A DNA stretch of 64,000 bases from Natronomonas halophila (lineage in GTDB: Archaea; Halobacteriota; Halobacteria; Halobacteriales; Haloarculaceae), in contig NZ_CP058334.1 in the NCBI RefSeq assembly GCF_013391085.1, positions 124,001 through 188,000 on the forward strand. Reading direction: 5' to 3'. A model generated the notes under the pieces. The model had not been told where the DNA came from, did no database searches, and saw only the letters and a list, made by a program, of their open reading frames with translations. A program made the position numbers and the translations under genes. How positions within the stretch are numbered: the stretch's first letter is position 1; each line of letters starts with the position of its first letter. Shown here piece by piece: positions 6,998-38,716 of the stretch.

Positions 6998-8536
6998 TCA
7001 GATGGACTTGAGCGTGCCGTCGGAGGGCTCGTAACACCGGCCGCTCATGAGGGCGTCCTGAATCGCCTCTTCGACGTCGTCGGCGGCGACACCGTGGGAT
7101 TCGACGACTGCCTCGACGAGTTCGTCGTGGTCGGCACCGTCGCCCTCGTCGAGTTCTTCCATCGTATTCATGACGGCGTCTTCGAGGTCGACGTCTCCGG
7201 CGGCTTCGGCCTCTTCTTCAGTTCCCGTTTCTTCCTCGGCCTCCCCCTCGATGGGTTCGGCCGGCTCCTCGGTGTCTTCCGGTTCGGGTTCCGGCACTTC
7301 CTCGGATTCGGTCGCTTCGGGTTCCGATTCAATTTCACCCTCGGATTCGGGGGTCTCGATGCCGGCCTCCTCAACCTCGTCGGCCGTCGAGAACTCGGTG
7401 CCGTACTCCTCTTCGACCTGTTCGCGGGTCTCCTCGTCGAGGTCGAACTCTCCGGGGTCGAAGTCGTCCAGTTCCTCCTCGACTTCCTCGCGGACCTCCT
7501 CTTCGGATTCGAATTCGCCGGGTTCCTCGACGGTCTCGGATTCAGTCTCGGGTTCGGCCGCCGGTTCGGCCGTCTCTTCGGTCACTTCCTCGGTCTCCTC
7601 GATGGTCTCGGATTCGGCGGGTTCGGACGTTCCTTCGACTTCAGCAGGCTCTCCGGTCGCCGGTTCGGTTTCGACCTCCGTTTCCGCTTCGGCCGACTCC
7701 TCGGGTTCGGGTTCCTCGCTTTCCTCTTCGACCGTTCCCGGAGTGACCTCGGCCTCGTCTTCCTCGTCGACGCCGGCCGCGGCAGCCGCCGACGCCGGCG
7801 AGGGAGCACCCGACAGGTCGAGCGTCGCGAGGTCGCTGGCGTCGCCCATCCCCTCGTCGGGGGCGACGTCGAGTCGCCGGACCTCATCGCGCTCGCCCGC
7901 GACGACGCGGGCGGCATCGAGAGCGGTCTCCCGAAGCGCGTCGAGGTAGGCGGGCGTCGTGTCGTAGTAATCCAACGCGAGCGCGACGCCGTCGGCGAGG
8001 CGGTCGTCGATACCCTCCTCGACCAGCGCGGCGCGTAACTGGTCGCCGGAGAGTTCGGCCTCGATGGCCGAGGCCATGATTCCGATGCGGTCGATGGTCC
8101 GCTCGGCCGTCGTGACGACCCAGCGATCCCGGGTTTCGGCGTCGACCTCGCTGATTGATTCGGGCCGGACCGACGTGTAAATCTGGTCGCCGTCGTCTGG
8201 TTCGAAGGTTCGAGCCTTCCCGGAGAGGGAGACGAAGGTCGGCGGGTCGGCGCGTTCGAGAAAGGCCAGCGCTTCGGGTTGATACTGGCCGGCGTAACTG
8301 ACGAAAGCGCCCGTCGGGTCGACGATACGCCCCCGAACCATCTCGGGGTTGACGTCGTCGACTTCAGTGAGGACGCCGACCGCGAAGAGGCGGTTGACCC
8401 GCGCGCCGGTCGGCGTGACGACGTAGTTCGGCGCGCGCTCCTCGTCGCTTTCGCTGTAGGAGAACTCCGCGTCGTCGAACTCGGCGGCGAAGAGGCGGTA
8501 GGCGACCTCCCGTCGTCCGGGGCCGGAGTCACTCAT
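6998..8536 (-). CDS. rpap1: RPA-associated protein with long acidic linker (COG3390 family)
   Basis: A 512-residue partner of the RPA1 single-stranded-DNA-binding protein. The N-terminal 250 residues form an OB-fold-like domain (EVAYRLFAAEF, PTGARVNRLFAVGVLTEV, GRIVDPTGAFVSYAGQY, PPTFVSLSGKAR) plus a helical part. Residues about 250-435 are an almost pure Glu/Thr/Pro/Val low-complexity linker. The last 65 residues form a compact helical domain (HDELVEAVVESHGVAADDVEEAIQDAL) resembling a winged-helix protein-interaction module. The ATG overlaps the rpa1 stop in a 4-bp ATGA, so expression is coupled. The role is inferred from the conserved haloarchaeal operon. Confidence 0.9.
   Translation of the reverse strand: MSDSGPGRREVAYRLFAAEFDDAEFSYSESDEERAPNYVVTPTGARVNRLFAVGVLTEVDDVNPEMVRGRIVDPTGAFVSYAGQYQPEALAFLERADPPTFVSLSGKARTFEPDDGDQIYTSVRPESISEVDAETRDRWVVTTAERTIDRIGIMASAIEAELSGDQLRAALVEEGIDDRLADGVALALDYYDTTPAYLDALRETALDAARVVAGERDEVRRLDVAPDEGMGDASDLATLDLSGAPSPASAAAAAGVDEEDEAEVTPGTVEEESEEPEPEESAEAETEVETEPATGEPAEVEGTSEPAESETIEETEEVTEETAEPAAEPETESETVEEPGEFESEEEVREEVEEELDDFDPGEFDLDEETREQVEEEYGTEFSTADEVEEAGIETPESEGEIESEPEATESEEVPEPEPEDTEEPAEPIEGEAEEETGTEEEAEAAGDVDLEDAVMNTMEELDEGDGADHDELVEAVVESHGVAADDVEEAIQDALMSGRCYEPSDGTLKSI
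7230..7790 (-). repeat. Low-complexity acidic-coding stretch inside rpap1
   Basis: About 560 bp of irregular short repeats that encode roughly 185 residues dominated by Glu with Pro, Thr, Ser and Val (blocks such as SEPEATESEEVPEPEPED). On the plus strand it reads as ttcggttcgg-like runs. It looks like an expanded flexible linker rather than a folded domain. Confidence 0.8.
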
Positions 8537-36872: not shown

Positions 36873-38027
36873 ATGGACTTTGCGCTTACCGACGAGCAAG
36901 AACAACTCAAAGAGGAAGTCAAGCGTTTCGCCGACAACGAGGTGCGGCCGAACGCCACCGAGTACGACGTCGAGGAGAAGTTCCCCCACGACATCGTCGA
37001 CGAGGCAGCGAAGATGGGCCTGACCGGCGCGACCATTCCCATCGAGTACGGCGGTGCCGGCTACGGCGCCGTCGACTCCGTCCTCATCGCCGAGGAGCTG
37101 TTCGCCGCCGACCCCGGCATTGCCCTCTCCATTCTCGCTACCAGTTTCGGTACGGAAGCCATCCTCGAATACGGCACTGAGGAGCAGAAAGAGGAGTTCC
37201 TCGAACCCGTCGCGAAAGGCGACGCCATCTCCGGGGCCGCCATCTCCGAACCCGACACCGGCTCGGACGTCTCGTCGGTAAGCACGCGTGCCGAGAAGGA
37301 CGGCGACGAATACGTCATCAACGGCAACAAGATGTGGATTACCAACGGCAGCGTCGGCGACTTCTTCGTCGTGCTGTGTAAAACGGACCCCGACGCCGAC
37401 GGCCGCTATAACGGCTTCTCACAGATTATCGTCGAATCCGACCGCGACGGATTCGAAGCCGACAAGATTACCGGGAAGATGGGCATTCGTGCGTCCGACA
37501 CCGCCGAACTAATCCTCGACGACGTGCGCGTCCCCGAGGAGAACCTCGTCGGTTCGGAGAACGCCGGCTTCTACCAGCAGATGAACTTCTTCGACGCCAC
37601 CCGAACCGGCGTCGCCGCACAGGGTATCGGTATCGCCAAGGGTGCCGCCGAACGTGCCCTCGACTACGCCCAGGAACGCGAACAGTTCGGCCGCCCCATC
37701 GGCGACTTCCAGGCCATCCAGCACAAACTCGCCGACATGCACACCGAAACCGAGGCCGCCCGTAACCTCACCTATAAGTCCGCCTGGGAAGTCGACGAAG
37801 GCGGCTCGCCCAACACCATGCTCGCCTCGATGGCTAAGGAGTTCGCCTCCCGCACCGCCGTCAAGGCCGCCAACGAGGCCGTCCAGATTCACGGCGGGTC
37901 CGGCTACGTCAACGACTTCGACGTCGAGCGCTTCTACCGCGACGCCAAAATCACCCAAATCTACGAGGGAACCACCGAGATTCAGAAGATGATTATCGCC
38001 CGAGAGCTTCAGGGCAAGGGCTTCTAA
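36873..38027 (+). CDS. Acyl-CoA dehydrogenase
   Basis: A 384-residue FAD enzyme for the first oxidation step of fatty acid beta-oxidation. The helical start MDFALTDEQEQLKEEVKRFA, the FAD/substrate segments SEPDTGSDVSS and MWITNGSVGDFFVV, and the C-terminal IYEGTTEIQ with the catalytic base Glu are all present. The ATG at 36873 is the family start; an in-frame GTG at 36849 would add eight unrelated residues. Together with the divergent fused enzyme it covers three consecutive beta-oxidation steps. Confidence 0.95.
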   Translation: MDFALTDEQEQLKEEVKRFADNEVRPNATEYDVEEKFPHDIVDEAAKMGLTGATIPIEYGGAGYGAVDSVLIAEELFAADPGIALSILATSFGTEAILEYGTEEQKEEFLEPVAKGDAISGAAISEPDTGSDVSSVSTRAEKDGDEYVINGNKMWITNGSVGDFFVVLCKTDPDADGRYNGFSQIIVESDRDGFEADKITGKMGIRASDTAELILDDVRVPEENLVGSENAGFYQQMNFFDATRTGVAAQGIGIAKGAAERALDYAQEREQFGRPIGDFQAIQHKLADMHTETEAARNLTYKSAWEVDEGGSPNTMLASMAKEFASRTAVKAANEAVQIHGGSGYVNDFDVERFYRDAKITQIYEGTTEIQKMIIARELQGKGF

Positions 38028-38033
38028 ACCCCG

Positions 38034-38075
38034 AACTTTTTGCACGGGCGCCTGCGGCGCCCGGCAAAAACTTCG
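38034..38075. terminator. Extended stem-loop downstream of the acyl-CoA dehydrogenase
   Basis: A perfect 8-bp stem CGGGCGCC-TGC-GGCGCCCG (38045-38063) is extended outward by CTTTTTGC/GCAAAAA pairing into a hairpin of about 20 bp with one bulge and one mismatch. It starts 7 bp after the stop codon. T-rich and A-rich flanks would let it end transcripts from either side, although archaeal termination normally relies on T tracts. Confidence 0.45.
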
Positions 38076-38097
38076 ATGAAAAAGACACGGCGGCCCT

Positions 38098-38180
38098 CCC
38101 GATTGTCGGGCCTTGGTCCCGCGCTCCCTCCGGTCGCGCGGTGAACCGCCTCGGGGGCCTTCGAAGAAGGCCCCGCTCGG
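38098..38180. repeat. Row of three further perfect hairpins
   Basis: CCCGA-TTG-TCGGG (38098-38110), CCGCGC-N11-GCGCGG (38119-38141) and GGGGCCTTC-GAA-GAAGGCCCC (38154-38174), the last widened by CCGCC/GGCGG outside it. With the preceding stem-loop they fill most of the 236-bp gap before 38264. This could be a structured RNA or a palindromic repeat element; there is no convincing gene inside. Confidence 0.5.
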
Positions 38181-38263
38181 CGGATGCTCCTCTCGTTTCC
38201 TGTTTCACTATTTTCAGCCAATCAGGTCGAAACCACTTTTAAACAGCCCCCGTATGTCCGACC

Positions 38264-38716
38264 ATGACGCGGGTGTGTCTCGTCGGGAAGGAGGACGTCG
38301 AGTTGCGCTACGAACTCGTCAGTCGCGAGACTGCCCGGGAGGCGCTGGCCACTTACGAATTGAAAGAACCCTACCACAACACCGTCGCCGTCGAAACCGT
38401 CTCGCTCGGCGGCGCCGTCGCCCTTTTAAACGACCTCAACTGGTATCTCGTCCGCTTCGTCGACGAATCCCTCGTCCTGGAACCGTCCGTCAGCGACGAG
38501 GAGTGGCTCTCGCGGGAACTGGCCGAGGCCGTCCGTGACAACGAAATCGCCCCCGAAGACACCGGGCGCTTCCTGAAGGTCTTCGGCATTCGCGACGAGG
38601 AACTGCTCGAACCGATGTTCGTCACCCGAACCGGGCACGAACTCCCGGATTACGACCTCCACGAGGTCGACGAGACGCTCGTCGTTCGCGTCACCGAAGC
38701 CGAGTTCGGCGCCTGA
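38264..38716 (+). CDS. Haloarchaeal conserved protein (possibly DUF5804)
   Basis: A 150-residue acidic protein with a first half of beta strands and helices (TRVCLVGKEDVELRYELVSRETAREAL; YHNTVAVETVSLGGAVALLNDLNWYLVRFV) and a helical middle (EWLSRELAEAVRDNEIAPEDTGRFLKVFG). It resembles proteins annotated DUF5804 in haloarchaea, a label I hold only tentatively. CTTTTAAAC, 24 bp before the ATG, suits a leaderless message. Function unknown. Confidence 0.65.
   Translation: MTRVCLVGKEDVELRYELVSRETAREALATYELKEPYHNTVAVETVSLGGAVALLNDLNWYLVRFVDESLVLEPSVSDEEWLSRELAEAVRDNEIAPEDTGRFLKVFGIRDEELLEPMFVTRTGHELPDYDLHEVDETLVVRVTEAEFGA

Follow-up and report, generated by a model that had tools for sequence, protein, structure and literature searches.

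REP/BIME sequences are dispersed intergenic palindromes whose stem variants keep their pairing and whose hairpins are grouped; according to the accessible part of their description, most of them lie between genes that are convergent or point in one direction, often less than 20 bp behind an ORF (PMC3733652). Transposase-free repeats have also been described for the haloarchaeon Haloquadratum walsbyi, in which PATEs carry near-terminal palindromes of the IS605 type, SMRs have terminal inverted repeats and SMR-A elements of approximately 110 bp insert into palindromes (PMC3119063, accessible text). Haloarchaeal terminators consist of a T stretch shortly behind the gene, and the motif T5C ended 95% of transcripts when assayed with a reporter in Haloferax volcanii (PMC7237163, accessible text). 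The hairpin element analyzed here, from the genome of Natronomonas halophila, resembles each of these systems. Like REP/BIME, it is composed of short palindromes with many intergenic copies that are rarely found between divergent genes; like the SMR-A case, it involves insertion into palindromes, here by twin-hairpin modules; and like the haloarchaeal terminators, it places a T stretch shortly behind a gene. It differs from REP/BIME in its four distinct hairpins, its T5/A5 and GAAAAAG cores and its archaeal host, and GT pairs, which are often seen in GTAG REPs (PMC3733652, same part), are nearly absent. No GTAG-like or CGTC tetranucleotide foot was seen by eye at the conserved edges of the alignment A1 described below. 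Unlike the element, PATEs and SMRs are not described as fixed behind stop codons in the accessible part of PMC3119063, and the inserts found here measure about 55-80 bp. In contrast to haloarchaeal terminators, the T5 tract is located in a hairpin arm, the opposite arm provides a T5 tract for the other strand, and this first hairpin is followed by three more. Mitochondrial double-hairpin elements, short twin hairpins that are regarded as mobile, are organellar; the present inserts are nested in the hairpins of a larger element, which is archaeal. Integron attC sites also lie behind stop codons and were set aside as a candidate, as copies of the element are scattered and do not form arrays. No earlier description of the element was found among open-licence papers, and an earlier account is possible; the accessible parts of PMC3733652, PMC7237163, PMC3119063, PMC6006769, PMC2841640 and PMC2864571 do not contain it.

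The starting point was a window of 64,000 nucleotides (G000:124001-188000), to which the following positions refer. On its plus strand, an acyl-CoA dehydrogenase gene (36873-38027; PF02771, PF02770 and PF00441 above cut-off) ends with the TAA codon at 38025-38027, and the gene of a DUF5804 protein of 150 amino acids (38264-38716; PF19120 above cut-off) starts at 38264, which leaves a gap of 236 bp. An earlier note had reported a cluster of four hairpins in this gap at 38034-38180. The cluster was recovered with slightly longer boundaries: a covariance model matched the full canonical four-hairpin form on the plus strand at 38032-38188 (G000:162032-162188) with 136.7 bits, this copy itself being among the 24 from which the model was made. 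The element begins 4 nt 3' of the acyl-CoA dehydrogenase gene. Hairpin H1 (38032-38075, read from the sequence) has the form CGAAC-TTTTT-GC, a GC-rich exchangeable tip and GC-AAAAA-C-TTCG, with a 4-bp base CGAA/TTCG, one bulged A and one C.C mismatch; its base and tip covary while T5/A5 is unchanging. This is the hairpin that had been singled out before as extended and bearing A/T arms. Its T5 tract (38037-38041, plus strand, 9 nt past the stop codon) is the proposed forward terminator of the upstream gene, and its A5 tract (38066-38070), a T5 tract on the minus strand, is a proposed reverse terminator. The linker GAAAAAG (38078-38084), invariant in A1 and mostly kept in the wider alignment A3, corresponds to CTTTTTC and thus T5C on the minus strand. 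With the A5 tract included, this strand of the element reads CTTTTTC and GTTTTTG. Hairpin H2 (38092-38112, GGCCC/GGGCC) shows changes on both sides; the flanking GAC (38084-38086) and GTC (38116-38118) form pairs that never vary and are therefore uninformative. Hairpin H3 (38119-38141, CCGCGC/GCGCGG) has few changes and is weakly tested, and hairpin H4 (38146-38183, CCGC ... GCGG) has a long exchangeable tip and inner arms of 9 nt with 100% complementarity. The 3' edge ATGCT (38184-38188) of GCGGATGCT is conserved in A1 and A3. By eye, A1 columns 73-74 and 98, which flank H2, seem to covary in a non-standard manner (G with T, T with C on the plus strand). Known RNA motifs such as a kink-turn were considered for the H2 base, by reasoning on the minus strand, and set aside as a misfit.

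Folding of 38025-38263 (239 nt) as plus-strand RNA gave -98.7 kcal/mol compared to -79.65 +/- 4.54 for shuffled sequences (z -4.20, none of 200 as good), and the other strand of the same stretch was better than all 200 shuffles (z -5.14). The pattern AACTTTTTGC-N5..35-GCAAAAA occurred once in the window and in none of 100 shuffles. A DNA search of the 3.21-Mb genome detected 62 matching pieces, including near-identical copies behind unrelated genes (97% identity over 93 nt, 93% over 130 nt). A covariance model, R1, was derived from alignment A1 of 24 full copies without long inserts. It yielded 40 matches of at least 80 bits in the N. halophila genome (150 of 4106 candidates scored) and 99 at E 0.1, among which are weak matches and shadows of H1 on the reverse strand. 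On the minus strand of L039, near a canonical copy, lies a relative that shares the CTTCGATGAAAAAG core but differs in its H1 tip and has a shorter right part.

In A1, 98.0% of 1000 cells were in standard pairs, compared to 87.0% after shuffling and 36-47% with the partner slid. As the structure was derived from the same sequences, this percentage is biased upward, and two-sided changes provide the stronger evidence for the structure: 86 cells had changed on both sides versus 22.2 in shuffled alignments. Further pair types (26 versus 22.5 shuffled, a value reached by 32 of 500 shuffles) were not clearly above expectation. One-sided changes were found in 8 cells, all G.U, among about 980 standard cells, and 20 cells were unpaired. 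The wider alignment A3 comprises 25 diverse Halobacteriales members and 15 pairs from the H1 base, the tract and the H4 base; of their cells, 92.2% were paired versus 80.7% shuffled, with 33 two-sided changes versus 8.1. The compensatory base changes that the earlier note had asked for are thus present in both sets, and its suggestion of a palindromic repeat family is borne out by the many copies, their relatives and these changes. GC-rich DNA readily forms hairpins, as the energies of about -80 kcal/mol of the shuffled sequences illustrate, and an ordinary terminator among chance hairpins in GC-rich intergenic DNA could be imagined at a single site. The shuffling controls, the dozens of copies and the covariation relative to shuffled and slid controls make this reading exceedingly improbable, and we regard it as refuted. 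The earlier note had held that a single unconserved copy without RNA reads would reduce the cluster to a composition effect plus terminator; on copy number and conservation, this reduction fails.

The T5/A5 pairs of H1 were unchanged in 24 of 24 A1 copies, and in A3 the T-A pair was kept in 23-25 of the 25 members at each position. Since pairing alone needs no T5/A5, the tract is likely kept for its sequence. The four pairs below the tract and those above it, in contrast, exchange freely. To examine them, 78 H1 hairpins from four genomes were compared, the search pattern requiring TTTTT and AAAAA and being therefore uninformative on the tract itself. The H1 bases were CGAAC/CTTCG in 41 hairpins, GAACC/CGTTC in 15, CGACC/CGTCG in 11 and other in 11, of which six were GAAAC/CGTTC with a single mismatch. 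Directly above the tract, the pair was G-C in 65 cases, C-G in 10 and unpaired in 3.

The family is widespread in the order Halobacteriales. At E 0.001, 17 of the 20 genomes searched in the genus gave R1 matches. Their number ranged from 26 to 79 in seven genomes (26-36 in G002, G003, G004, G007, G009 and G016) and from 0 to 4 in G001, G005, G006, G008, G013-G015, G017 and G019, some of which are incomplete. With stricter filters and E 1e-6, 85 of 293 genomes of the order were matched. The copies in relatives that the earlier note had proposed to look for were also captured with a wider model, R2, built from the 25 members of A3. At E 1e-4 and with at most 75 candidates scored, 28 of 40 Halobacteriales genomes had a match, including 24 of the 27 complete genomes; the highest number in one genome was 69, and 12 of the 40 (3 of the 27 complete) had no match. 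When R2 was applied to 246 genomes from the whole phylum, with stricter filters and 12 candidates scored in each, 37 genomes matched, all Halobacteriales; no sampled genome outside the order matched, the sample not being matched for composition, and six order genomes in the same search had no match listed. An exact 25-nt core was found in Natronomonas gomsonensis YCN60, Natronomonas sp. CBA1123 and a Halobacteriales MAG. At one locus (L066, G005:C1:2763268-2763677), three diverged copies were observed head to tail with a period of 142 bp. The Natronomonas form had no plasmid or phage match by blastn and its exact 19-mer core was absent from viral contigs, and a plasmid, phage or viral origin of this form was rejected for want of such matches. 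A form of another genus (L187) is present on nine haloarchaeal plasmids, and a third form (L085) had no plasmid match. By eye, H1 to H4 are visible in six of the nine plasmid copies (L209-L213 and L217), the usual right end is missing from L214 and L215, the left arm of H1 is missing from L216, and the T tract of L212 is interrupted.

The placement of the copies was determined relative to genes predicted from codon usage, with the window as the training set of the caller. In the N. halophila genome 38 copies were counted (44 matches minus six duplicate loci; three copies of at least 80 bits, at 8020, 1032668 and 2477393, are outside the count and L034 with 62 bits is included), of which 18 lie between convergent genes, 19 between same-direction genes and one between two 5' ends. 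The 3' end of a protein gene is flanked by 37 of the 38, and the remaining copy (L018) starts 8 nt 3' of the archaeal SRP RNA gene. A protein gene ends on the H1 side of 29 copies and the start of 27 of these falls between -2 and +19 nt relative to the stop codon, the exceptions being L030, located 33 nt behind a tRNA-Met gene, and L037, which carries inserts; for L037, L027 and the first copy of L019 the model start lies inside an insert and distances are not meaningful. The H1 edge faces a gene start in eight copies, at 29-46 nt in six of them, while two carry inserts. Where no gene ends on the H1 side (L007, the first copy of L008, L017, L021 and L026), the start codon was observed 39-46 nt away, and in L003 the H1 edge lies 29 nt before a start codon. 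In these copies the H1 edge seems to adjoin a putative promoter of the gene that it faces. For comparison, divergent gaps make up 5007 of the 7962 bp of intergenic DNA in the window, and a T5 tract within 40 nt of the stop codon is found in just 4 of its 58 genes.

The same placement is seen in the close relatives G002, G003 and G016, for which 56 of 57 copies were counted (L169, cut by a contig end, excluded). A protein-gene 3' end is flanked by 51 of the 56 with genes called on both sides, one without a called left gene has a 3' end on its right, and four lie between two protein-gene 5' ends; 26 of the 56 are between same-direction genes. Left-hand distances were within -2 to +10 nt in 30 of 37 cases and 69-402 nt in the other seven. 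The SRP RNA gene precedes the element by 4-8 nt in L128, L143 and L163 and thus, together with L018, in four genomes, and in L159 the element is located 5 nt behind a tRNA-Met gene. Among the ten best-scoring listed copies each of G046 and G025, which belong to other families, all 20 flank a 3' end, 18 start -1 to +5 nt from the stop codon and 13 are between same-direction genes.

Comparison of close genomes revealed stable sites with remodelled elements. At 51 of the 57 loci of G003, G002 and G016, at least 300 bp are shared with one of these loci in another of the three genomes; because the loci were chosen for holding elements, this number shows stable sites and does not measure insertion. 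The other loci (L116, L134, L135, L142, L154 and L156) are without partner and outside the site groups, L135 being an acyl-CoA dehydrogenase locus. Alignment of 20 site groups showed preserved flanks and remodelled elements. In 41 pairs from 19 groups (L169 excluded), mean identity was 93% (61-100%) for the outer 60 nt and 76% (54-100%) for the H1 tips, and in 36 of the 41 pairs the tip was less identical than the flank. The tips remain nearly palindromic. The middle part swaps its subfamily in 6 of the 20 groups, as judged by eye. Orthologous hairpins with an identical inner arm were compared in 55 pairs; the loop was kept in 32, was the exact reverse complement in 10 and was otherwise changed in 13. 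Exact inversions thus account for 10 of 23 loop changes, one event being counted twice, where approximately 0.4 would be expected if the other triplets were equally likely. Twin-hairpin modules of about 55-80 bp were observed inside the hairpins of the element or just behind H1. They are present or absent at the same site between genomes (L149 versus L157, L151 versus L164), seven of them each match 5 to 13 of the loci analysed, some of which overlap, and two have 12 and 10 matching pieces in the N. halophila genome. Loci with modules in this genome are L005, L007, L008, L019, L025, L027-L030, L036, L037 and L039, and AACG(T) was observed on both sides of the insert in L149 and L151.

A cis-acting structured RNA at transcript 3' ends, selected for its fold and serving stability, protein binding or processing, would agree with the two-sided covariation, the 3'-end placement and the low folding energy of either strand. 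In an RNA fold, however, G.U should be better tolerated than A.C. This expectation weakens the explanation, as G.U is nearly absent from A1 (8 cells among about 980 standard) and the 78 H1 tips contain 607 Watson-Crick positions, 3 G.T, 3 A.C, 20 C.T and 1 A.G, so that G.T is no commoner than A.C in these small counts. When each tip was paired with others of equal length, G.T and A.C amounted to 2.8% and 2.7%. Of the 78 tips, 63 are perfect in a register chosen to favour pairing. Tips and loops are moreover unconserved, with 52 distinct tips among the 78. The opening T5 tract could cut off such an RNA. None of 4227 Rfam families matched in the window, and no Rfam match to the element was found at E 0.1 in four loci carrying members. 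Taken with the inverted loops, which make up 10 of 23 changes, these data weaken the structured RNA that had been considered in the earlier note, and we think it improbable that selection for a fold explains the family.

A more serious competitor is a selfish palindromic repeat (MITE-, PATE-, SMR- or REPIN-like) that is mobilised by a transposase acting in trans and tolerated at 3' sites as the least harmful ones; T5/A5 would then be part of its recognition ends. We consider both the selfish repeat and this role of T5/A5 rather unlikely. Near-identical copies behind unrelated genes agree with mobility, and the explanation stays serious because of the patchy copy number within one genus, the plasmid copies, all nine of which lie at least 80 nt from annotated stop codons and one of which (L217) is between two annotated 5' ends (the gene table being incomplete), and the nested twin-hairpin modules that recur in several elements. 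Haloquadratum SMR elements likewise insert into the palindromes of other elements (PMC3119063, accessible text). Opposed to this are the close fit of chromosomal copies to the gene end, the flanks common to most element-bearing loci chosen from the three close genomes, and the failure to find a clean empty site of the whole element. Six other genomes carry seemingly diverged elements, recognized by eye, behind acyl-CoA dehydrogenase homologues, and L107 is the sole such homologue without any element; these genes are paralogues of uncertain orthology and differing gene order, and their loci were set aside as empty sites. The N. halophila genome contains a single Y1_Tnp (PF01797) match (L044, 1471-3136), with no R1 match listed nearby; the ORF directly behind it has a Cas12f1-like TNB domain. 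We take this to be an IS605-type arrangement; the flank of the Y1 gene showed no resemblance to the element by eye, and no RAYT-like gene flanked by copies was found in this genome. A transposase source was set aside, given this one Y1_Tnp gene in its IS605-like setting, and for the same reason the element was not filed as a member of REP/BIME.

The explanation that we favour, and hold to be somewhat probable, is that the dispersed multi-hairpin elements form a family widespread in Halobacteriales, lie at the 3' ends of genes and act as two-sided terminators, their palindromes being kept up in DNA like those of REP/BIME. A two-sided terminator is the likeliest function because T5 is kept on both strands, the 3' placement is near-fixed and T5C is strong in Haloferax. 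Transcription of the upstream gene would stop at the T5 tract just behind it. On the opposite strand, where the A5 and GAAAAAG tracts each read as T5, they would stop transcripts arriving from the other side, for which both tracts lie behind hairpins H4 to H2. The element would thereby combine a two-sided terminator with a 3' boundary. If T5 ends the upstream transcript, H2-H4 are unneeded for that end; counting against two-sidedness, copies between same-direction genes (half of those counted in N. halophila) leave one terminator without an obvious client. The judgement that the cluster far exceeds a simple terminator therefore holds for its build, while the T5/A5 core makes termination its likeliest single function.

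Upkeep of the palindromes in DNA is, judged from sequence comparison, the likeliest route of their persistence, because loops are exactly inverted, tips are swapped and there is no wobble excess. The palindromes would be reshuffled when tips are inverted or exchanged, when the middle part changes from one subfamily to another and when nested twin-hairpin modules are inserted, and such DNA events, rather than the slow compensatory change of an RNA, would maintain the pairing. Template switching, conversion between copies and hairpin opening are candidates for this process. We tentatively suggest that the element represents an undescribed, order-wide class of archaeal 3' boundary, in which two-sided covariation may arise from DNA conversion and not from RNA selection.

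If the element is a terminator, its tens of copies behind protein, SRP RNA and tRNA genes would make it a main part of transcript ending and gene separation in Halobacteriales, one that is missing from Rfam. The family also offers a natural test of palindrome evolution, as close relatives differ in their tips yet retain the pairing, and no wobble excess appears. Covariation may here record events in DNA, which calls for caution in taking covariation as proof of a functional RNA.
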